Assembly: GCF_002868735.1 (NCBI RefSeq)
Contig: NZ_CP025612.1
Span: forward strand, 992,001 to 1,056,000
DNA length: 64,000 bases
Source: Niveispirillum cyanobacteriorum
Lineage (GTDB): Bacteria; Pseudomonadota; Alphaproteobacteria; Azospirillales; Azospirillaceae
Reading direction: 5' to 3'
The position numbers and the translations under genes are program-made. This document shows positions 1 to 10,224 of the stretch, piece after piece. The notes beneath the pieces were generated by a model, which saw nothing but the letters and a program-made list of their open reading frames with translations, had not been told where the DNA came from and ran no database searches. Numbering within the stretch: the first letter of the stretch is position 1; every line of letters begins with the position of its first letter.

Positions 1-701
1 AACATTTCCGTCCGCATCTTCCATTCCGGCCCCTGCCCCTTGCTGGACCAGAGGATGCGGGCCACGCCCTTTTCTTCCAGCAGATAGGCATCGGTCATGG
101 TGAACAGCCCGTCGATCTTGCCAGCCGATACCGCCGCCGCTCCCGTCATCGGATCGATATTCAGAATGGTAAAGTCGGATGGTGACAAGCCACGTGCCGC
201 CAGCAGTCGGAAGAAGGGGATTTCCCAGGGCCGTCCACGATGCACCGCGATGCGCTTGCCCTTCAGGTCGCCCACATCCTTGGCCGTAGATCCTGCTGGC
301 ACCACCAGGAACGTATCGCCGCTGCCGCCCATACCGTTGGGGACCAGCAGCCTTGTCTGCACACCATTGGCATTGCAGATGATGGTGGGCAGATCACCAT
401 AGGAGGCGAATTCCAGGGATCGGTTTGCAAAGCCCTCATTGATCTGCGGGCCCGTCGCCTTGTGCGACACGGCAAACGGCTCCAGCGCCACACCGCGCTT
501 GTCCAGTTCCGCCGCCAGCCAGCCCTGATGCTCAATCACGGCGGCATAGCCGGTCAATTGCAACTGGCCCTGGGCGAAATTCACGCCGCCGGCGATGCGG
601 ATGGATTTGGGCAAGGCTTGCGCGCGGGTGATGATGGCGGGTGCGGTGACCGCAGCCAAACCGGCGACACCGGCCTTCAGCAGGAAACGGCGATTGATCA
701 T
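1..701 (-). CDS. ABC transporter periplasmic binding protein, sulfonate/taurine/nitrate type (3' end outside window)
   Basis: Reading leftward from an ATG at 701, the frame stays open to the window edge (233 codons), so the C-terminus is missing. The N-terminus reads MINRRFLLKAGVAGLAA, a twin-arginine-like export signal with a hydrophobic core, ending near an AQA site. The mature part has the SsuA/NMT1-like layout of a type 2 binding protein, including DLKGKRIAVHRGRP and IPFFRLLAARGLSPSDF, which follow the fold's usual order. It should deliver an alkyl- or arylsulfonate-like anion to the permeases encoded upstream. It is the last visible gene of a minus-strand operon (FMN reductase, two permeases, ATPase, DszB-like protein, then this gene). 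Substrate is not readable from sequence; nitrate, taurine or a nitrile/urea-type ligand remain possible. Confidence 0.8.
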   Translation of the reverse strand, partial: MINRRFLLKAGVAGLAAVTAPAIITRAQALPKSIRIAGGVNFAQGQLQLTGYAAVIEHQGWLAAELDKRGVALEPFAVSHKATGPQINEGFANRSLEFASYGDLPTIICNANGVQTRLLVPNGMGGSGDTFLVVPAGSTAKDVGDLKGKRIAVHRGRPWEIPFFRLLAARGLSPSDFTILNIDPMTGAAAVSAGKIDGLFTMTDAYLLEEKGVARILWSSKGQGPEWKMRTEM

Positions 702-713
702 GGTCCAGCCTCC

Positions 714-1778
714 TTACGCTGCGGTCCGGATGCGGGCCTGCACCTCGGCCAGCGGGCGCGGGTCGATCCAGTCATGAATGTTGAAGTCTTGGTCCAGCGC
801 CCCGATGGAGGCGATGTAGTCCTTGAAGACCCCCAGTCCCTTGATGCTGTCTTCCGACAGCTCCACCGACAGCGACCTGTGCAACTGCTCCCCATAGGCA
901 CGGCGCAGCCAACGCTCAGACCAGCCAGTCTCCCGCGCCACCAGCGCCGTGGCATCGTCGGGATGCAGGGCCGCCCACTCTCCGGCCTTCACGACCTGAC
1001 GCAGAAACCGGCTGACGATCTCGGGATGGTTCTCAATCGTCTCTTCGTTCACGGTCAGCGGGCGCGGGGTGCAGTTGGACACGCGTATATAGGGGTCAGG
1101 ATGGAAGCCCAGATCAAAAATGATCCCTGCGCCCAGCAATTGTGTCACCTCCGCCCCGCGCACATCCTTGACGTAAACGGCGTCCACCTCGCCCCGAACC
1201 AGGGCATAGACCTCGTTCGTATAGGAATGGCGACGGCGGCGACCGGCAAAGGTCACCGTGGCATCAGGGGCACGGGGATCATTGGCCAACGGCACCGCCG
1301 TATCAGCCAAGTCCTTCAGTTCCACATCGCGGAGGCTCAAGCCTTCCGTCTCCAGCGCCACGGTAAACGCCCGCAGGGTGGAGATACGGTTATGATCAAC
1401 CAGACTGCCATGATGGGGGATGCCCACCCGGCGACCGCGCAAATCACGCACAGAACGGATGCCCGATTGCGGCAGAGCGATGATGGCTTGATATTCATCG
1501 GTCCAGGTGATGCCGATTACCTTGGTCCGCACCCCTTGCCCCCGTGCCCAGATGGGCGGAACCGATCCGCCTTGGCGGAAGGAATGGCGTAGTGAATGGG
1601 TGAAATGGGATTCCTGCTCCGCCGGGTCGGCAGATTCCCGCAACGCCTTGACGATGATGCCATCGGGGGCGAATTCCTGTTCGAACCACGCGAACTGTGC
1701 CGCCAGCCCAAACGGTGTGGGCACGGAACAGCGGGTGTACCAGAGCGTGTCGATATTGGCCGGGGCGGCAAGGGTCAT
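714..1778 (-). CDS. DszB-like desulfinase / ABC-binding-protein-fold protein
   Basis: Annotation pipelines would probably call this an ABC substrate-binding protein, but it has no export signal. It resembles DszB, the 2-(2'-hydroxyphenyl)benzenesulfinate desulfinase of the 4S desulfurisation pathway. The DszB catalytic residues Cys27, His60 and Arg70 have counterparts in YTRCSVP (C17), SHFTH (H58) and SFRQGG (R68), with the same His-Arg spacing of 10. The DszB-like stretches VRDLRGRRVGIP and KVIGITW follow. The start at 1778 is chosen because AGGAAACAG precedes that ATG; an ATG at 1820 overlapping the ATPase gene would add 14 residues and has a poor ribosome site. Length is about 354 aa, like DszB (365). 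It sits between the ATPase and the binding protein of an Ssu-like operon, so cytoplasmic release of sulfite from an imported aryl sulfinate is plausible. This is inferred from memory of the DszB sequence. Confidence 0.7.
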   Translation of the reverse strand: MTLAAPANIDTLWYTRCSVPTPFGLAAQFAWFEQEFAPDGIIVKALRESADPAEQESHFTHSLRHSFRQGGSVPPIWARGQGVRTKVIGITWTDEYQAIIALPQSGIRSVRDLRGRRVGIPHHGSLVDHNRISTLRAFTVALETEGLSLRDVELKDLADTAVPLANDPRAPDATVTFAGRRRRHSYTNEVYALVRGEVDAVYVKDVRGAEVTQLLGAGIIFDLGFHPDPYIRVSNCTPRPLTVNEETIENHPEIVSRFLRQVVKAGEWAALHPDDATALVARETGWSERWLRRAYGEQLHRSLSVELSEDSIKGLGVFKDYIASIGALDQDFNIHDWIDPRPLAEVQARIRTAA

Positions 1779-1809: not shown

Positions 1810-2601
1810 TCAGCCGGCATGCAGCAAGGAAAGGATTTCAGCCTTCAGCGGCACCAGGGCCGGGTCGTCTCGGTCGCGCGGGTGGGCGTTGGGTACATGC
1901 AGGACGCGGGCGATACGACCCGGCTGCATGACGACAATGACGTCGCCGAGGAACAGCGCCTCATCGACGTCATGGGTCACCATGACCATGGTGCTGCGCT
2001 GGGTCAGCCAGATGCGTTGCAATTCCGATTGCAGACGCAGCCGGGTCAAGGCGTCCAGTGCGCCCAGCGGTTCATCCAGCAGCAGCACCTGTGGCTGGGG
2101 GGCCAGGGCACGGGCAATGGCGGCCCGTTGCGCCATGCCACCGGACAGCTGATGTGGAAAGGCCTGGGCAAACCCGTCCAGCCCCACCAGGGTCAGGAGG
2201 CTGGCCACCCGAGCGCGCTTGTCGGTGGCCGCCTCGTCACTGTTGGACAAGGCCAGCAGCACATTCTGTTCAACGGTCAGCCAGGGAAACAGCCGATGAT
2301 CCTGAAAAATCAGGCCACGGTCCAGCCCCGGCCCAGCCACGGGCACCCCGTCCAGCAGAATGTCACCGCTATCCTGCCGCTCCAGCCCGGCGATCAGGCG
2401 CAGCAAGGTGGACTTGCCGCAACCACTGGCCCCGACGATGGAGATAAACTGTCCCGGCGCGATGGTCAGGCTGACATCTTCCAGCACCGACAGTTTGCGT
2501 CCGTCGATATCAAAGGCCTTGTCGACATGCCGGATAGCAAGGCCACCGGCGGCGGGCGCGCTGTCCACCTCGACGCTGCGCGGATCAATGATGGCGTTCA
2601 T
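1810..2601 (-). CDS. ABC transporter ATP-binding protein, SsuB/TauB/NrtD type
   Basis: 263 aa, normal for the family. Walker A is GASGCGKST at residues 57-65, the signature LSGGMAQR at 152-159 and Walker B VLLLDEP at 172-178, followed by the D-loop ALD and the switch histidine in VMVTHDVDEAL. The Q-loop context LIFQDHRLFPWLTV is typical of sulfonate/nitrate importers. It energises uptake through the two permeases encoded just upstream. GGAAGG lies eight bases before the ATG. About 16 bases separate it from the preceding permease gene, so the genes are cotranscribed. The exact substrate class cannot be decided from the ATPase. Confidence 0.93.
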   Translation of the reverse strand: MNAIIDPRSVEVDSAPAAGGLAIRHVDKAFDIDGRKLSVLEDVSLTIAPGQFISIVGASGCGKSTLLRLIAGLERQDSGDILLDGVPVAGPGLDRGLIFQDHRLFPWLTVEQNVLLALSNSDEAATDKRARVASLLTLVGLDGFAQAFPHQLSGGMAQRAAIARALAPQPQVLLLDEPLGALDALTRLRLQSELQRIWLTQRSTMVMVTHDVDEALFLGDVIVVMQPGRIARVLHVPNAHPRDRDDPALVPLKAEILSLLHAG

Positions 2602-2617
2602 GATTACCTTCCAGGGT

Positions 2618-3460
2618 TCAGCCGGTGACGCGCCAGCGCAGCAGACGCGCGCGGACCAGCGACAGGATCAGGTTCAGGCAATAACCCATCAGGCCGATGG
2701 AGATGACGCACAGCAGAACGACACCCATGTCGCCCGCCATCTGTGCGGTATGCATCAGGGACCCCAGTCCAGCCCCTGTGCCGAACAGCAGTTCCACGCC
2801 GATGGTGGAAATCCAGGCAAAGGCCAGCGCCTGGCCCACGCCAGTCAGGATTGACGGCAAGGCTGTCGGCAGCAGGATGAAGCGGAGGGTTCGCCAGCGG
2901 GACAGCATCAGTACCCGCCCTACCTCCAGATGCTTCTTCTCCGCCTGGGCAAAGCCCTCATATGAATTGAGCAGCAGCGGGTGGAAGGCGGCGACAGCGA
3001 CCAGCAACTGCTTTGCTTCCTCTCCGCTGCCCAGCCACAGGCCGACCAAGGGCAGCCAGCCCAGCAATGGGACCTGCCGGAAAGCCTGCAACAGCGGTCC
3101 GAACAACCGCTCCACCACCGGGAAAGCTGCCATCAGGCTGCCGAGCAGGATGCCAGATAGGCCTCCAAGCACCAGACCGGTCAAGGCGCGCCCGAGGCTG
3201 GACCCGGCATTGATCGCCAGTTCGCCGGTCGACAGCAATTGCAACAGCCGATCCCAGACCTGATCCAGCGGCACAAAGGCATAAGCCATGCTGGCATCGA
3301 TGCTGGACGCCCAATGCCAGGCGGCAGCCAGCAGAAGCGGCAGCACCAGACCGCGCGCCCGCTTGACCAGAGCGACCAGCCAGGCCGGCGGCGGATCATG
3401 ATCTTCAATCCGGTCGGCATAAACGAAAGAGGTGGGCGGGAATTCAGCGATCAGTGACAT
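2618..3460 (-). CDS. ABC transporter permease, SsuC-like (first of two)
   Basis: 280 aa inner-membrane protein with about six hydrophobic segments and a cytoplasmic N-terminal tail of about 30 residues. The EAA-type coupling loop is visible as LEVGRVLMLSRWRTLRFILLP, preceded by the family motif FHPLLLNSYEGF. GAGGAGG precedes the ATG. Together with the next permease gene it should form a heterodimeric channel, whereas classical SsuC works as a homodimer; two different permeases in one Ssu-like operon are less usual but known. It is 13 bases downstream of the neighbouring permease. Confidence 0.9.
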   Translation of the reverse strand: MSLIAEFPPTSFVYADRIEDHDPPPAWLVALVKRARGLVLPLLLAAAWHWASSIDASMAYAFVPLDQVWDRLLQLLSTGELAINAGSSLGRALTGLVLGGLSGILLGSLMAAFPVVERLFGPLLQAFRQVPLLGWLPLVGLWLGSGEEAKQLLVAVAAFHPLLLNSYEGFAQAEKKHLEVGRVLMLSRWRTLRFILLPTALPSILTGVGQALAFAWISTIGVELLFGTGAGLGSLMHTAQMAGDMGVVLLCVISIGLMGYCLNLILSLVRARLLRWRVTG

Positions 3461-3473
3461 GTTCCAACCCTCC

Positions 3474-4232
3474 TCAAACCGCTTTCCAGCGGACCAGCCG
3501 GCGTTCGGCTAGCCGCACGCCCTGATCCAGGGCAAACCCGATCAGGCCGGTCAGGGCCACCCCGACCATCACCGTGTCGATGCGGAACATCTGGCGGCCC
3601 ATCTCCATCATCTGGCCGATGCCATTCTCCGCCGCCATAAGCTCTGCCGCGACCAGCACGATCCAGGCGCGCGTCAGTCCCAGACGCAGGCCCGTCAGCA
3701 CCGGCGGCACCGTGGCGGGCAGGATCAGACGAAACAGCACGCGTATCGGCGACAGGCGGTAAATGGCGGCGACTTCCAGCCATCCCTTTGAAATGCCCTT
3801 GACCGCATCATGGGTGGCCAAAGCCACGGGGAAGAAAGCGGCCTTAGCGACGATGGCCAGCTTGAACCCCTCATCCACACCCAGCAGCAGGATCAGCATG
3901 GGCAGAAAGGCGATGGACGGCACCTGTCGCACCGCCTGAAAAAACGGGCCGGCAAAGTCGTTCACCAGGGCAGACCGGGCCAGCAGAATGCCAAAGCCCA
4001 ATCCCAAGCCCGAACCGATGCCAAAGCCCAGCAGCAGCCGTGACAGGCTGGCGCGCAGATGGTCTGCCAGTTCGCCGCTGGCCAGCAGCTCGTTGAAACT
4101 ATCCAGAACGGCAACGGGTGGCACCAACACCTGAGCCGTGAAATCATCCCCACTGGTGGCCGCGAGCCAGGCGGCCAGGATCAGTCCGGGAACCAGTAAT
4201 GGCAGAAGCCGTTGTTGAAGGGTCGATCTCAT
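3474..4232 (-). CDS. ABC transporter permease, SsuC/TauC-like (second of two)
   Basis: 252 aa with six predicted membrane spans. The coupling loop is WLEVAAIYRLSPIRVLFRLILP, followed by PPVLTGLRLGLTRAWIVLVA, which closely matches BPD-type permeases for sulfonate, taurine and nitrate. GGGGGAGG lies 8-12 bases before the ATG. It begins 15 bases after the FMN reductase gene. It pairs with the neighbouring permease to form the transmembrane pore; ligand identity is not determined. Confidence 0.9.
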   Translation of the reverse strand: MRSTLQQRLLPLLVPGLILAAWLAATSGDDFTAQVLVPPVAVLDSFNELLASGELADHLRASLSRLLLGFGIGSGLGLGFGILLARSALVNDFAGPFFQAVRQVPSIAFLPMLILLLGVDEGFKLAIVAKAAFFPVALATHDAVKGISKGWLEVAAIYRLSPIRVLFRLILPATVPPVLTGLRLGLTRAWIVLVAAELMAAENGIGQMMEMGRQMFRIDTVMVGVALTGLIGFALDQGVRLAERRLVRWKAV

Positions 4233-4247: not shown

Positions 4248-4817
4248 TCAAGCCACGACCGGAACGCCGACCAGCGTTCCACGCGTCAGCCGTGCCACTT
4301 CATCGGCAATGCGATCCGCCTGGGCCAGCAATGCCGCTGAGGACAAGCCGTAGCTGCCATCGACATCGACCTGAAAATCCCCATCCCGGGCGAACAGGCC
4401 TGTAGGCACCGTATGCGTGCCGAAATAGGCGAAAAGCGGCCGCAGCTGATGATCAATGATCGACAGCGGGTCCGCCGCCGCCCCGGTGGCGGCCAGCACT
4501 ACGGTCTTTCCGGCCAGATCATCCGGGTCCAGCAGGTCCAGGAAATGCTTCAGCAGTCCGGTGTAGGACCCTTTCTGAACCGGCGTGCCGACCACCAGGA
4601 TATCGGCGGTACGCAACGCAGCGAAAGCGTTGTACAGCGCCGGCAGCGCATCGCGCGGGTGCAACGTCCCGGCCAGGGCCGGGGCCAATGCTGCCACCTC
4701 CACCAGCCTTGTCTGGGCGGGTCCCAGCTGTGCGGCCAAGCGACAGACCATATCCTCCACCAGCGTGGTGGTGCGCGACTGGCGGGACAAGCTGCCGGAT
4801 AGGCCGACGATACGCAT
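4248..4817 (-). CDS. NADPH-dependent FMN reductase, SsuE/MsuE family
   Basis: About 189 aa flavodoxin-like reductase. The N-terminus MRIVGLSGSLSRQSRT is the FMN-phosphate loop of the family, and VVGTPVQKGSYTGLLKHFLD is the second diagnostic motif of SsuE/MsuE. The start at 4817 is preferred over an upstream in-frame ATG because GGAGGTTCCC directly precedes it. Such enzymes supply FMNH2 to two-component monooxygenases of the SsuD/MsuD or DszA/DszC type. No such monooxygenase is visible in the window; it may lie beyond position 1. It is the first gene of the transporter operon, with promoter signals expected between 4818 and about 4990. Confidence 0.88.
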   Translation of the reverse strand: MRIVGLSGSLSRQSRTTTLVEDMVCRLAAQLGPAQTRLVEVAALAPALAGTLHPRDALPALYNAFAALRTADILVVGTPVQKGSYTGLLKHFLDLLDPDDLAGKTVVLAATGAAADPLSIIDHQLRPLFAYFGTHTVPTGLFARDGDFQVDVDGSYGLSSAALLAQADRIADEVARLTRGTLVGVPVVA

Positions 4818-5043
4818 GGGAACCTCCATGGTGGGCGGTAATGCCATGGAGCGTATTGGCAAATATCATGCCATACCTGCCAGTATAGCGGCGAAGACCG
4901 AAACTTGGAGGTTTAGACTTGTGAAATTTTCAGTTCAACATGCAAAATTTGTTTATTTGTTGGTTGAGCAACAGCCAAGCACCAGCCGGTCCATTCGAGA
5001 GTTGCATGTTAACATCCACGCTGGTGGTGGAAATTCACTGACG
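4818..5043. other. upstream region of the sulfonate operon and left edge of IS debris
   Basis: No gene is seen. The stretch 4925-4975 is unusually AT-rich, with CAAAATTTGTTTATTTG flanked by TCAAC and GTTGGTTGA, and is the best candidate for the promoter/operator of the minus-strand sulfonate operon. From about 4996 the sequence is alignable with the left flank of the second IS256 copy (about 47841 onward), so the insertion-sequence remnant starts there. Confidence 0.4.
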
Positions 5044-5074
5044 GGCTTTTGGGGGGCATGCCCCAACAAAAGCC
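5044..5074. repeat. stem-loop at the left end of IS256 copy 1
   Basis: GGCTTTTG (5044-5051) pairs with CAAAAGCC (5067-5074), and the loop contains a nested GGGGCATGCCCC palindrome. The equivalent place in IS256 copy 2 (47877-47910) has a different but also perfectly paired stem, so the structure appears to be kept while the bases changed. Confidence 0.6.
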
Positions 5075-5174
5075 GTTTGCGGCGCTGCAATGGGTGATCA
5101 TTGGCGAGATCGGCCAGAGTGGAGTTGCGACACTTCCTCAAGCGCCAACGACCCAACCAATCACCGATGACAGT

Positions 5175-5855
5175 ATGGCGATGACCGATCTTCTTCAGAA
5201 GGCCGGCGAGGGTGATTTTCTGCGTGCAGTGGCGGAAACGGTATTGCAGATGTTGATGGAAGCCGACATTGACGGCCATGTCGGTGCCGGGCGTCATGAA
5301 CGTCATCCCGAGCGGCTGAATTACCGCAACGGTTACCGGGACCGGGCGCTGGACACGCGGCTGGGAACGTCGAACCTGCGCATCCCCAAATTCCGGCAAA
5401 GCAGTTGTTTTCGGGCCTTCCTGGAAGCCCGCAAGACCAGTGAGAAGGCCCTGGTGGTGGTGATCCAGGAGGCCTGGATCGGTGGCGTATCCACCCGGCG
5501 CTTGGCCTGCATATCGGTCCCTCGGAAGCCGAGATCATTTGGAGCGATTTCCTGAAGTCTCTCAAGACCCGTGGCCTGAAGGGCGTGAATCTGATCATCT
5601 CTGACGCCCATGAAGGGCTGAAGGCCGCCGCCGCCCTGCGTCAGGCCTTTCTCCAGCCCGACGCCGATGACGCCCACAAAACCTTCCGTCATGTCGCCGA
5701 CCAGATGCGCGATCGATCACCCAAGCTGGCGGCTTTCATGGATGCCAGCGAGCGTGACGTGCTGGCCTATATGGGCGTTCCCGCCCAGCACCGCACAAAA
5801 CAGCATTCAACTAACACGCTGGAACGGCTGAACAAGGAGGTCAAATGCCGCGCCG
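5175..5855 (+). pseudogene. IS256-family transposase, copy 1, internally deleted
   Basis: The frame from 5175 gives MAMTDLLQKAGEGDF, then YRNGYRDRALDTRLG and VVIQEAWIGGVSTRR, all typical of Mutator/IS256 transposases. Comparison with copy 2 shows two internal losses: about 240 bases between GGCGTATCCACCCGGCGC and TTGGCCTGCATATCGG near 5503, and about 100 bases near 5625, between LKA and AALRQAF. The C-terminal part (LIISDAHEGLK, RDRSPKLAAFMD, TNTLERLNKEVK) is therefore out of continuity, and the final segment is replaced by IS110 sequence at about 5855. It keeps the 56-base N-terminal segment that copy 2 has lost, so the two copies decayed independently. Confidence 0.85.
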
Positions 5856-6235
5856 ATTCGGCATGCGGGATGATATCGACAACCAGATCGGCGGTCTGCT
5901 GAAGACCTTCGGCATCCTGTTCGGCAAGTGGGTGGGCAGTTTCATGAAGCGGGCAGAGGAACTCATTTCCGGCGAACTGAACACCAGCCCGGAGTTGAGC
6001 CGGCTGGTCGAGACGCTGCTGAAAGCCCGCGCTGAGATCCAGGGTCGGATCCGTGACCTTGATCGCGACCTGATGCGTCAAGCCAAAGCCTCGGAGGTCT
6101 GCCGCCGGTTTATGGGGGTTCCGGGAGTCGGACCCGTTACTGCCCTGTCCGTATGGGCAGCCAATGACGATCCCGACCGGTCTGCCCGCTCCAGCAGTGT
6201 GGGGGCCAGTGAAGACGCCGCCATAGAGGTTGTGG
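5856..6235 (+). pseudogene. IS110-family transposase fragment
   Basis: The frame reads MRDDIDNQIGGLLKTFGI, then LETLLKARAEIQGRIRDLD, and FMGVPGVGPVTALSVWA. The last is the GxGPxTA helix-hairpin-helix-like motif (transposase_20 region) of IS110 transposases. Only the middle of the protein is present; the catalytic DEDD N-terminus and the end of the C-terminal domain are missing. It is fused in frame to the truncated IS256 remnant, consistent with an insertion followed by deletion. It is a different lineage from the intact IS110/IS1111 element at 49.0-50.4 kb. Confidence 0.8.
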
Positions 6236-6281: not shown

Positions 6282-7195
6282 ATGCCCCCTACACATCTTT
6301 CACCGTCGACCCCTTGTCCGGTCGGACGCTATCTATCCTTGCCAGCTCGGGAGGAGATTGGGCTGATGCTGGCGCGGGGATGTGCCTTGCGAGCGATTGC
6401 ACGGCATCTGAAACGATCCCCCTCGACGATATCCCGCGAGGTCCGTCGCAATGAGGCGACGCGCTCGGGCGGGTTTGAGTATCGGGCAACCACAGCCCAG
6501 TGGCATGCAGAACGAGCAGCGCGCCGGCCCAAGATCGCGAAGCTGGCCTCGAACGAGCGGTTGCGACACTATGCGCAAGAACACCTTGCCGGCCTGGTCC
6601 AGCGATCAGATGGAGGCAAGGTCGCTGGGCCACAGGCGCCCTGGAAAGGGCGGCGCCATGGGCGCAGACAATCGTGGCGGCCGGGCGCTACGCGTGCCCC
6701 AGGCCCGGCCGGCTGTCGCGGAAGATCCTTCGTCACGCCTGAAATCATGATCAGCGAACGCCCAGCCGAAGCCGATGACCGCGCCGTTCCTGGCCATTGG
6801 GAGGGTGACCTGGTCACCGGGCTGAACAGTTCTGCCATTGGCACCCTGGTCGAAAGAACGACCCGTTTCACAATGCTGTTGCATCTGCCAGCGATGCCGG
6901 GCCACGGCGAAGGGGCACGGACGAAGAACCGTCCCGCCCTTGCCAGCCATAACGCCGAAGCTGTGCGTGACGCCATCGCACGAACCATTATCAAACTTCC
7001 TCACCATCTCCGGCGATCTTTATGCTGGGGTCAGGGGGCTGAAATGGCGCGGCACGCGGATCTGAAGGTTCTTGCCGATCTGCCGGTCTATTTCTGTGAT
7101 CCGCATAGCCCATGGCAACGCGGGACCAACGAGAACAGCAATGGGCTGTTACGCCAGTATCTCCCCAAGGGCACGGACCTCGCTCTGCTTCAGTA
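6282..7195 (+). pseudogene. IS30-family transposase, deleted and 3'-truncated
   Basis: The N-terminal helix-turn-helix region is clear: LSLPAREEIGLMLARGCALR and RSPSTISREVRRNEATR. The catalytic half follows with VPGHWEGDLVTG, LVERTTRFTMLL, AEMARHADLK and YFCDPHSPWQRGTNENSNG, which carries the last acidic residue of the DDE triad. Between about 6640 and 6720 roughly 70 residues of the usual family sequence are missing and the frame is scrambled. After KGTDL (about 7180) the homology stops, losing the last 30-40 residues. The element is dead. Confidence 0.82.
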
Positions 7196-7233
7196 TCAAT
7201 TTGATCGCTTGGCGCCGCACATCGAAATAAGAT

Positions 7234-10053
7234 TCAGAAACGGATCTTCGCACCCGCCGTGAAGTAGCGCCCCCTGGGATCATCGCCCAGTGCGAAGCCG
7301 TCACGCAACCCGGCGCGCGTGCCGTTGCCGGAGAAGCCGCCGATTGGCGGCGTGGCATCGAACACATTCTGGACATTGCCATAGATCTGCAGATTGCCGA
7401 AAGCAGTACTGGTATCCCAAGCCACATTGATACCCGTGGTGGCGAAGGCACCGATACGGTTCTTCACCCAGACTTGGCTGGGATCGCCACCCAGCTTCAT
7501 GGCATTACGCCAGCGCTGGGAAATATCGACCGTGACATTCTCCACCGGCTGGAACCGGAAGAAGGCAGAGAGGCGCACGGATGGCGTAGCCGCCAGGCCC
7601 AGCGGACCAAAGGCAACCCCGCCCTGATCCAACGTCGCCACGTTGGGCTGCCGGTAATAGACATGCGGCTGCCAGGCGGCCAGAACCCGGAACATCATCG
7701 GCCGATCGAGCAGCTCGGCCGAATAGTTCAGTTCCGTGTCGATGCCCCAGGTCTCGATCTCCGATAGGTTGATGTTCTTGGTCAGCCAACGGGTGACCGC
7801 GTTGGCAGCAGACCGGTCGGCGAAGCCATTGGGCCGTTCTTGGAGCAGGCAATAGGGTGAGGTGCCGCCACTGGCGTAGCAAGCCTGCTGGTATGCTGGA
7901 GTGGAACCGGCGATCTGCGTCACGGCATCGGAAATCCGGATCCGATAACCGTCCACCGCGATGTTCAGATCAGAACTGGGCTGCCAGACAATGCCGGCCG
8001 TTACGGTATTGCCGATCTCCGCCGTCAGGTCCGGATTGCCTTCATCCACCTGCGGCGTCGTCGGGCTGAGACCCGTCAGCAAGTCCGTCGGGCGCACAGG
8101 AATGATCGTGGTGGGAGAGAACAGGTCATAAAGGGTGGGTGCCCGGATATCGCGCGACCGCGTTCCACGCAAACGGACCTCATCCGTCACGTGCCAGTCA
8201 ATGCCCAGCTTCCAGGTCCAATAGGTGCCGCTGGTATTGTAATGGGTATAGCGTGCAGCACCATTGACGTTCAGTGATTTCGCCAGCACGCTGTCGACCA
8301 GAAGCGGTGCATCGAACTCCACCGCTGCCTCATACACGGTCTGGCTAACCCCGGCCGTTTCGCCGAACACGGATTCCGTCAATTGCGTACCGGCGGTACA
8401 GTTGAAGCGGATGCCGGTACAGTCCACCACATCGCTGGGTGCGGCACCGCTTTCGGAACTGAAGGAAACCTTGCGCCATTCTGCCGACAGGGCGGCATTG
8501 ACGGGGCCGGCCCAGGTATCAAACGGGCTTCCGCCCACCTGACCGGCAATGTCGTTCATCACCGTTTTGGAATGGTATGCGATCGTATCGGTGACATAGC
8601 CGATTGCCTCCGCCGCCGACGCATTGGGACCGAAAACATTCAACGGCACACACCCATTGGCCAAGGCAGGGTTGGTCAATGTGATATTGCAAACCGTCTG
8701 GCCATTGGCCGGATTGACGACAGCATCCAACGCCGACCACAGCTTCTGTCGGTTGATGACATTGTTCAAGTCGGTGTCCAGCACCGCTTCGCCATGGGTA
8801 TAGTCGATGGCCCAGTTGATACCCCCGGCCCTTCCATCGAAGCCGGTCGTAGCGATGATTTGTTCTGAATCCGAAACGGCCTGGATGCGCGGGACATCCG
8901 CCATGAACTTGCTGAAGCGGAAGGTTGGCTGATTGGCCGGGATCAAAGCCTGGATCTGGGGCGACAGGAAGGCATTGGTCCGGCTGATGGCAACGCCATT
9001 TAACTGGTTCGTTTCGGCATAGGAACTATTCGTCTTGAACGTCCCGGATAATTGCGCATAGGCATGGATATCGTCGGTGACGTCGTGATCCAGGCGGCCG
9101 AAAAGCTGATGACCTTCCAACTGCGCAATCAGACCGCTATCCCAATAGCCGCCATCGCCACCGATCTGGATGGCGGAAGTGCCGGTCGCTGTACCGGCAA
9201 CGAAGGGTGACAGAGCGCCGTTGGTCTTGAACACCTGCCCCGCCAGAGCACCCGTGGTGATCAAACCGCCAAAGGGAAAGTCCTTCTGCCGCAGGTTGGT
9301 CTGCAGGAAATAGGGGCTGGCCGCGGTGCCCGCCCCCGTGACACCGACCTGATTCAGCCAATCGCGGTCGGTCCGGTTATCGATCCCGCCCTCGTCGCGA
9401 TACTCATAGCTGAACTCGACATGGACTCTGTCGTTGATATCCGTGCCATAGGCCATGGCAGTGTTGAACTTTGTGGCGTCACCCTGCTCGGACACACCAT
9501 AGGAAACATCGGCGCGCAGCCCTTGGAGCTTGCGGTTGATGACATAGTTGACGACGCCGGTCATGGCATCGGAGCCATAGACTGCGGATACACCGCCGGT
9601 CACCACATCAACCCGTTCCACCAGCAATTGCGGGATGATATCGACATCCACCACACCATTGAACAGCGTCGGCGGTACGCGCTTGCCATCCATCAGTACC
9701 AGCGTACGGGTGGGGCCGATATTGCGCAGGTTCAACTGGTTGGCGGAACCATTGCCACCGGCGGCACTGCCGACCGTTGTCGGGTTGCTGGCCGACCCGC
9801 GTGAACCGGAGAAGACCGGCAGGCTGTTCAGCGCTTCTGCCAGGGTGGCACCGGGCTGCGTGGTCAGCAGATCGTCGGTACCGATCACCGTCACCGGCGA
9901 CGGGCTGTTGGCGCCATCCTTGATGACGCGGGAGCCGGTGACGATCACCTCTTCCAGGATCTCGGCTTGACCCGCCGCCGTCTGGGCCGCGACAGCGTGA
10001 GTGATAATGAGCGCGCTTGCGCCGGACAGTAGCGCAGAGGCCAGGAACCGCAT
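7234..10053 (-). CDS. TonB-dependent outer-membrane receptor (paralogue 1)
   Basis: 939 aa from the ATG at 10053, which has GGAGG at good distance; an ATG six bases upstream is too close to that site. A Sec signal ends near HAVAAQ. The plug domain begins with EEVIVTGSRVI and continues through LNLRNIGPTRTLVLMDGKRV and RVDVVTGGVSAVYGSDAMTG. The remainder is a 22-strand barrel ending RYFTAGAKIRF, with the C-terminal phenylalanine expected for BAM insertion. It is closely related to the receptors at 36.2-39.0 and 44.2-47.0 kb, sharing the VNPANGQTVCNITLTNP / CVPLNVFGP block. Imports an unknown large ligand across the outer membrane using TonB. Its 3' end abuts IS30 debris. Confidence 0.92.
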   Translation of the reverse strand: MRFLASALLSGASALIITHAVAAQTAAGQAEILEEVIVTGSRVIKDGANSPSPVTVIGTDDLLTTQPGATLAEALNSLPVFSGSRGSASNPTTVGSAAGGNGSANQLNLRNIGPTRTLVLMDGKRVPPTLFNGVVDVDIIPQLLVERVDVVTGGVSAVYGSDAMTGVVNYVINRKLQGLRADVSYGVSEQGDATKFNTAMAYGTDINDRVHVEFSYEYRDEGGIDNRTDRDWLNQVGVTGAGTAASPYFLQTNLRQKDFPFGGLITTGALAGQVFKTNGALSPFVAGTATGTSAIQIGGDGGYWDSGLIAQLEGHQLFGRLDHDVTDDIHAYAQLSGTFKTNSSYAETNQLNGVAISRTNAFLSPQIQALIPANQPTFRFSKFMADVPRIQAVSDSEQIIATTGFDGRAGGINWAIDYTHGEAVLDTDLNNVINRQKLWSALDAVVNPANGQTVCNITLTNPALANGCVPLNVFGPNASAAEAIGYVTDTIAYHSKTVMNDIAGQVGGSPFDTWAGPVNAALSAEWRKVSFSSESGAAPSDVVDCTGIRFNCTAGTQLTESVFGETAGVSQTVYEAAVEFDAPLLVDSVLAKSLNVNGAARYTHYNTSGTYWTWKLGIDWHVTDEVRLRGTRSRDIRAPTLYDLFSPTTIIPVRPTDLLTGLSPTTPQVDEGNPDLTAEIGNTVTAGIVWQPSSDLNIAVDGYRIRISDAVTQIAGSTPAYQQACYASGGTSPYCLLQERPNGFADRSAANAVTRWLTKNINLSEIETWGIDTELNYSAELLDRPMMFRVLAAWQPHVYYRQPNVATLDQGGVAFGPLGLAATPSVRLSAFFRFQPVENVTVDISQRWRNAMKLGGDPSQVWVKNRIGAFATTGINVAWDTSTAFGNLQIYGNVQNVFDATPPIGGFSGNGTRAGLRDGFALGDDPRGRYFTAGAKIRF

Positions 10054-10224
10054 CGACATCTCCTCCAGGATATTTGTTTATCCGCCAATCATCTGTCATC
10101 ATGCAGGGGCGGTTATGCGGATTTGGCCTTATTATTTACTCTGGCCGTTTCATCAGCAGTGAATTTATCTAATCCCAAATATCAATTTTGACTGATTGAT
10201 TTGGTCATACAGCTTATTGGTTTA

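Follow-up and report, generated by a model that had tools for sequence, protein, structure and literature searches.

A DszB-like protein in an SsuA-type importer operon of Niveispirillum cyanobacteriorum, a candidate sulfinate desulfinase of a putative organosulfur-scavenging island

In the 4S pathway of biodesulfurisation, the slow step is that of the desulfinase DszB, according to the excerpted text of PMC12168087. The C27S variant of the enzyme is inactive and the H60Q variant about 17-fold weaker, an RXGG motif is conserved in DszB homologues, and the structure includes a helix at residues 55-62 that forms upon substrate binding and a mobile loop at residues 187-204 (PMC6100217, in excerpt). 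A related arrangement is described for benzothiophene desulfurisation in Gordonia terrae C-6, whose bdsABC genes comprise desulfinase, alkanesulfonate-monooxygenase-type and FMNH2 monooxygenase genes, and where sulfonate-type ABC transporter genes with locus numbers neighbouring bdsABC are up-regulated (PMC3868597, in excerpt). For the proteobacterium Chelatococcus, a study reports DszB peptides, of which one matches Rhodococcus DszB (PMC4839641, in excerpt); these peptides are DszB itself, and other than the protein family described below. A sulfinate also occurs in the sfn/msu dimethyl sulfone pathway, in which SfnG converts dimethyl sulfone to methanesulfinate, and in the excerpted account of PMC8234197 MsuC oxidises this sulfinate before MsuD splits it, without a desulfinase.

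The DNA analysed here, referred to as the window, is a stretch of 64,000 nucleotides (C2:992001-1056000) from the 6.05-Mb genome of Niveispirillum cyanobacteriorum. At its left end lies a minus-strand operon (Table 1) that encodes, in order, an FMN reductase, two permeases, an ATPase, a DszB-like protein and an exported SsuA-type binding protein, the last of which matches the SsuA structure 3uif at E 2.9e-85. The placement of the DszB-like gene between the ATPase gene and that of a true exported binding protein, as given by a first-pass annotation made from the sequence alone, was confirmed, as were the presence of an FMN reductase gene (nearest to MsuE) in the operon and the coordinates and frame of the DszB-like gene. 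The latter agree with the open reading frame list and with an AGGA directly 5' of the ATG at 1778; a further in-frame ATG at 1820 falls within the ATPase gene upstream, and the two genes are separate reading frames, with no fusion. For the FMN reductase, an ATG at 4817 is preceded by GGAGG, and the open reading frame list gives a TTG at 4862. The operon as contained in the window holds no luciferase-like (LLM) monooxygenase gene, DszA-type or other, and no DszC-type monooxygenase gene. To its right are two insertion-sequence remnants, one (5049-5902) an IS256/Mutator-type transposase in two reading frames (5049-5555 and 5585-5902), the other (6282-7262) an HTH_38-domain reading frame which we take to be IS30-like, followed by a TonB receptor gene at 7234-10059.

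Table 1. Features of the importer operon and its upstream region (positions within the window)
Feature	Position	Strand	Remarks
Exported SsuA-type binding protein	3..701	minus	N-terminal 233 of 356 aa; extends left to C2:991631
DszB-like protein	714..1778	minus	354 aa; C17, H58, R68, RXGG; NMT1/SsuA-type periplasmic-binding-protein fold without export signal
ABC importer ATPase, nitrate/sulfonate/taurine type	1810..2601	minus	best NCBIfam profiles all below cut-off
ABC importer permease, SsuC/TauC/NtrB type	2618..3460	minus	below cut-offs
Second ABC importer permease, SsuC nearest	3474..4232	minus	below cut-off
FMN reductase, MsuE nearest	4248..4817	minus	158.6 bits, MsuE cut-off 212.5
Sigma54-type promoter match TGGCAT-N5-TTGC	4859..4873	minus	about 42 bp upstream of FMN reductase ATG

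The kinship to DszB suggested by the first-pass annotation was borne out, DszB being the top match by sequence, by profile and by fold. In a phmmer search of all PDB chains, DszB (2de2) came first at E 2.7e-15 over residues 9-341 (25-26% identity), the best exported protein being 3e4r, labelled in the Foldseek match list as SsuA of Xanthomonas, at E 0.0039, with E. coli SsuA at E 0.1. The profile comparison that the annotation had proposed also favoured DszB, hhalign giving E 8.1e-34 against two DszB sequences versus 2.2e-19 against eight SsuA-type proteins of the same loci. Structure prediction, proposed there as well, led to the same relative. An AlphaFold2 model built from a 54-row alignment (pLDDT 91.3, pTM 0.88) was placed by Foldseek closest to 2de3 (DszB) at 1.4e-22, with the best SsuA at 9.7e-16, and global superposition with a second structure aligner gave Z 33.1 for 2de3 (2.7 A over 309 residues) versus 25.5 for the best SsuA, 3uif. 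Further down the fold matches are the regulatory domain of CmpC/NrtC (Z 18.5-19.3), Thi5, MqnA/D and 4,5-dihydroxyphthalate decarboxylase. The predicted model has a helix at residues 52-60, at the place of DszB helix 55-62, and a low-confidence stretch at 165-181 that lies roughly at the place of the mobile loop. In a tree, whether DszB falls nearer to the family or to the exported proteins depends on the root, and the placement carries a long-branch warning.

Residues C17, H58, R68, G70 and G71 align with DszB C27, H60, R70, G72 and G73, consistently in phmmer, in an alignment with 155 family members and in hhalign, and both proteins space the histidine and the arginine 10 apart and have an RXGG motif that begins with this arginine; the annotation had singled out C17, H58 and R68 and this same spacing, and all of it held. 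The global superposition of the model on DszB is in agreement with these residue matches. The family alignment comprises 155 rows from 172 matches, after short, weak, duplicate, own and genome-search copies had been dropped. Within it the five positions are kept in 124, 137, 153, 155 and 155 members, respectively, and the complete Cys-His-Arg set in 121. None of eight exported SsuA-type proteins has the cysteine, histidine or arginine at those columns, and the second glycine is present in all eight. Because DszB is the top solved match and the exported proteins lack the three residues, the Cys-His-Arg match is more than chance. DszB S25, the partner of the histidine, corresponds to T15, and threonine or serine stands there in 135 of 155 members. 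Other positions differ: Y63 and Q65, near the active site of DszB, are replaced by H61 (147/155) and L63 (148/155), and near-invariant family residues occur where DszB differs, namely R16 (149/155), E95 (155/155), K204 (152/154) and R239 (154/155).

As the annotation had stated, the protein lacks a recognisable export signal. By hydropathy it has no hydrophobic N-terminal stretch, a simple measure giving 0.85, versus 2.12 for the exported binding protein of the same operon. Exported homologues, which would have spoken against the annotation's proposal, were likewise not seen: an export-type stretch was found by hydropathy in none of the 155 family members, with N-termini trimmed for the test and with a crude measure that flags only 26 of 43 SsuA-type proteins and therefore misses some export signals.

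At least 571 relatives of the protein are present in the genome collection, and the 79 loci read come from the best 80 of these, so that the sample leans towards close ones; in 299 genomes sampled from the phylum, six, the window's own included, hold a match at E 1e-40 or better. Members are found in rhizobia, Burkholderia, Pseudomonas, Sphingomonas and methylotrophs, and are catalogued as ABC binding proteins. When the 79 loci are combined with the window's own island, 70 of the 80 hold an LLM gene. Of the 126 DszB-like genes with enough sequence to either side, 65 have such a gene no further than 1.5 kb away, and of 149, 48 are directly preceded by one on their own strand. LLM midpoints around the query-hit gene fall in 40 of 133 bins of the first kilobase, and each of the eight bins farther out has them in 2-9 of 129-133. 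Fifteen of the 79 loci, all rhizobial, show the order SBP, SfnG-like LLM, DszB-like gene and acyl-CoA-dehydrogenase-fold gene, the last three matching the order dszA-dszB-dszC as on pMyong1. In one such locus (L064) the LLM directly upstream of the DszB-like gene is nearest to SfnG (205.8 bits, cut-off 382.95), and the acyl-CoA-dehydrogenase-fold gene, scoring 31.5 bits for DszC (cut-off 850) and 118.4 of 430.9 for SfnB, is not specifically DszC-like; the corresponding gene of a Bradyrhizobium locus (L072) is closer, at 263.9 for SfnB and 118.6 for DszC. Since the product of SfnG is methanesulfinate, a desulfinase acting after an SfnG-like enzyme would be chemically sensible. In three further loci (L035, L092 and L102) the LLMs are nearest to SsuD, below cut-off.

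On a plasmid of Rhizobium sp. ACO-34A (L102:8868-11089), the last four bases of an SsuD-like LLM gene also belong to a DszB-like gene of deeper branching, upstream of which stand genes for an ABC ATPase and a binding-protein-like protein; the annotation calls all of these hypothetical. On pSymA of Sinorhizobium meliloti ABS7 (L020:14282-15318), a second DszB-like copy seems split into two reading frames, with an intact copy near, and the genes alongside encode an SDR, an FAD monooxygenase and a DszA-type LLM.

The first-pass annotation had supposed that the system might be completed beyond position 1 of the window, and three LLM monooxygenase genes are indeed found to the left, ruling out a system without a monooxygenase. 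They belong to an island whose larger, left part occupies C2:974089-992701 and which, together with the window operon, measures about 23 kb and contains three DszB-like genes, a sigma54 activator, the SsuA-type importer and the FMN reductase. Its minus-strand part comprises a class II aldolase-like gene, an NtaA/DmoA-type LLM gene, DszB-like copy 2 and a TonB receptor gene; its plus-strand part comprises an SsuD-like LLM gene, an MsbA-like ABC transporter pair and DszB-like copy 3; and it is completed by a nitroreductase, an XRE-cupin regulator, another SsuD-like LLM, another class II aldolase-like gene, the sigma54 activator and the exported binding protein. The NtaA/DmoA-type LLM gene adjoins copy 2, about 15 kb from the window operon, and its closest solved relatives are 7e36 (6.7e-95) and YtnJ (5.1e-89), with DszA less close (1e-78). 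Three DszB-like genes are detected genome-wide at E 0.001 or better, all of them in the island, and three of the six LLM genes of the genome lie within the same 20 kb, an arrangement with a chance of about 7e-7 for a given 19.8 kb stretch. With a single sequence as query, DszB leads the solved matches of copy 3 (E 5.2e-17), and copy 2 has exported proteins (4.5e-5 and 7.6e-4) ahead of DszB (0.0039), over short stretches. No SfnB-profile match occurs in the island, and none of the 11 found genome-wide is above cut-off.

The nearest relatives of the window protein in named genomes, among the best 80 of at least 571, are at 96-97% identity and belong to two Niveispirillum metagenome genomes and to alphaproteobacterium AAP38; by their contig coordinates these are the same three copies that a survey of the genus recovered (genomes G008, G007 and G005). 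All four sequences keep the cysteine, histidine and arginine. Because a copy occurs in only 3 of 10 other genomes of the genus that were searched, the island looks accessory. Among its other genes, the MsbA-like pair beside a DszB-like gene (L003:7679-11343), the first member of which was assigned by profile scan and the second by neighbourhood search only, has counterparts in 15 of the 80 loci and possibly exports the desulfurised product. The class II aldolase/adducin-like genes (L003:89-772 and L003:15640-16383, corresponding to C2:974089-974772 and C2:989640-990383) recur in 36 of the 80 loci, several just downstream of a sigma54-type site. Outside the island, at G000:C2:647311-648854, an LLM gene adjoins an FMN reductase gene, possibly as an ordinary sulfonate monooxygenase pair.

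The island is probably under sigma54 control, judging from sequence patterns: the case is made because of the promoter match in the window, its three same-genus copies and the pooled neighbourhoods. The identical 15 bases precede the FMN reductase gene in three loci of the genus (L022, L023 and L024), and the window of 64 kb holds three occurrences of the pattern versus 0.55 expected. Across the pooled loci, 33 of 54 sigma54-type sites, several of the 33 coming from near-identical species, are followed on their own strand by a recognised cluster gene at no more than 400 bp; letter-permuted patterns gave a mean of 0.475 and a maximum of 6, and as these have half the degeneracy, a fair control figure is about 1. 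In the 20 kb left of the window there is one occurrence of the pattern, which is no excess (30 of 200 shuffles), and with one mismatch allowed there are two versus 4.26 by chance, that is, fewer than chance. The activator encoded in the island has 369 aa, and its listed profile matches begin at residue 36 or later, leaving no room for a sensor domain. In Paraburkholderia phymatum, alkanesulfonate monooxygenase and sulfonate-transporter genes are expressed at a lower level in a published rpoN mutant (PMC5979394, in excerpt).

Taken together, homology, fold, residue conservation, the lack of an export signal, gene neighbourhood and the promoter match suggest, at a probability of about 0.62, that the window protein would be a cytoplasmic DszB-type sulfinate desulfinase acting after an FMNH2-dependent monooxygenase in an organosulfur-scavenging island. 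The chemistry, the substrate, the order of steps and the activity of the importer-linked window copy are what we infer. The SsuA-type importer, possibly together with the TonB receptor beside copy 2, would take up a sulfonated or sulfone-type compound, which an LLM monooxygenase of the island, supplied with FMNH2 by the reductase of the operon, would convert to a sulfinate. In the DszB-like protein, R68 and the GG turn would hold the sulfinate, closure of the lid would bring H58 into the site, and C17 would protonate the carbon, with release of sulfite for assimilation; H58 would stabilise C17 and in turn be held by T15. Counting against a desulfinase is that LLM enzymes of SsuD/MsuD type can release sulfite from sulfonates with no desulfinase involved.

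The chief doubt lies in the importer linkage of the window gene and in the absence of the cysteine from half of its nearest supported clade: the window copy could instead be a binding or sensing paralogue, catalytically retired or of dual use, that senses or passes on the imported compound in the cytoplasm and regulates the importer, the island's desulfination then being left to the other two DszB-like copies. A model for such a role is NrtC/CmpC, whose binding-protein-like C-terminal domain is thought to regulate the importer, and this regulatory domain is among the fold matches of the window protein. The distribution of the cysteine speaks for it as well. When the 154 copies with a usable neighbourhood are assigned by the closest recognised gene that lies no more than 500 bp away on their own strand, the cysteine is kept in all 54 LLM-adjacent copies (two of them also importer-adjacent), in 16 of 35 copies beside importer genes alone (lost in 19), and in 53 of 65 copies beside neither (lost in 12). 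The 31 Cys-less copies keep the arginine in 29 cases and the GG in all, and have also lost the histidine in 15, as would fit binding without chemistry, and among the 124 Cys-bearing copies the histidine is absent in three. At least five changes of cysteine state are required on the tree. After correction for ancestry, however, the association with LLM adjacency is not significant (9 pairs, about 2 informative versus 0 opposite, p 0.5), nor is that with importer adjacency (7 pairs, about 0.6 informative, p 1). The supported clade of eight rows that includes the window protein has the cysteine in four, yet the window copy, importer-linked as it is, and its three same-genus relatives keep the triad intact, and two close Cys-bearing relatives from outside the genus (L025 and L027) lie directly downstream of an LLM gene. 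A retired or dual-use paralogue is judged unlikely, if the most serious of the alternatives. In 12 DszB-like copies, serine and isoleucine replace the catalytic cysteine and histidine with RXGG intact (L019, L033-L038, L041, L043, L045, L055 and L056); 11 are from Burkholderia/Paraburkholderia and one from a Rudaea metagenome genome, and 11 head an importer run of SBP, permease and permease, the twelfth lying at a contig end.

Quite tentatively, the two patterns might be joined, the family having split on one scaffold into LLM-linked Cys-His-Arg desulfinases and importer-linked proteins that keep RXGG, lose the cysteine and often the histidine too, and serve as cytoplasmic sensors or hand-over proteins; the window protein would do both, as a transporter-coupled enzyme.

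An enzyme that has the DszB triad but works by another chemistry or on another class of substrate, say by desulfonating, decarboxylating or hydrolysing a polyanionic compound, appears rather improbable. The near-invariant R16, E95, K204 and R239 suggest a ligand more charged than hydroxybiphenyl sulfinate, the same-fold enzymes Thi5, MqnA/D and 4,5-dihydroxyphthalate decarboxylase do different reactions, and a class II aldolase-like gene recurs among the loci. Nevertheless, the three residues that define catalysis in DszB and the RXGG are all kept, and the partner genes are members of C-S bond-cleaving families of FMNH2-dependent monooxygenases. A binding protein of the ordinary exported SsuA type, with a missed signal peptide, is very improbable and was rejected: Pfam and NCBIfam do group the protein with NMT1 and, below cut-off, with the SsuA family, and its operon is of SsuABC type, but it scores 97 bits against an NCBIfam SsuA_fam cut-off of 163.5, hydropathy and the three kinds of comparison with DszB speak otherwise, and a separate exported SsuA-type gene adjoins it.

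Should the family consist of desulfinases, many alternative enzymes would be on offer for biodesulfurisation, and a sulfinate-to-sulfite step would enter soil organosulfur scavenging. With the natural Cys-less copies on the importer side, an enzyme and a binding protein that share one fold can readily be compared.

How the locus relates to described systems can be set out case by case. DszB, bdsABC and the Chelatococcus peptides are precedents, so the kind of enzyme is already known; a description of the window protein's proteobacterial family as desulfinases was not found in the open-licence PMC literature. New, as far as the open literature shows, are a family of proteobacterial proteins that carry the label of ABC binding proteins, its association with monooxygenases and sigma54, the multiple copies that islands contain and the Cys-less paralogues linked to importers. 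With DszB the window protein shares the full-length fold, the Cys-His-Arg positions, RXGG and the lack of an export signal, whereas the family-specific residues, including H61/L63 for Y63/Q65, the location of the gene in an importer operon and the restriction of the loci read to Pseudomonadota set it apart. The SsuABCDE and MsuDE systems resemble the island in their importer, SsuD/MsuD-like monooxygenases and MsuE-like FMN reductase, all of which score below curated cut-offs here; to our knowledge, an extra cytoplasmic DszB-like protein is not part of them. With the sfn/msu pathway the system shares a sigma54 activator (there SfnR) that leaves no space for a sensor domain, a sulfinate as likely intermediate and, in rhizobial and Variovorax loci, SfnG-like LLM genes scoring below cut-off; the pathway differs in having, in the excerpted account, no desulfinase, whereas DszB-like copies are present here. 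In NrtC/CmpC a cytoplasmic binding-protein fold likewise stands next to an importer ATPase, but there the domain is fused to the ATPase, whereas here it is a separate protein, and one nearer to DszB (Z 33.1 versus 18.5-19.3). Finally, bdsABC, as excerpted, also combines a desulfinase gene, monooxygenase genes and sulfonate-type ABC transporter genes; it is an actinomycete system, whereas the Niveispirillum island, in which the SfnB-profile search found no SfnB/DszC-type gene, has three desulfinase-like copies and a sigma54 activator with a promoter match.
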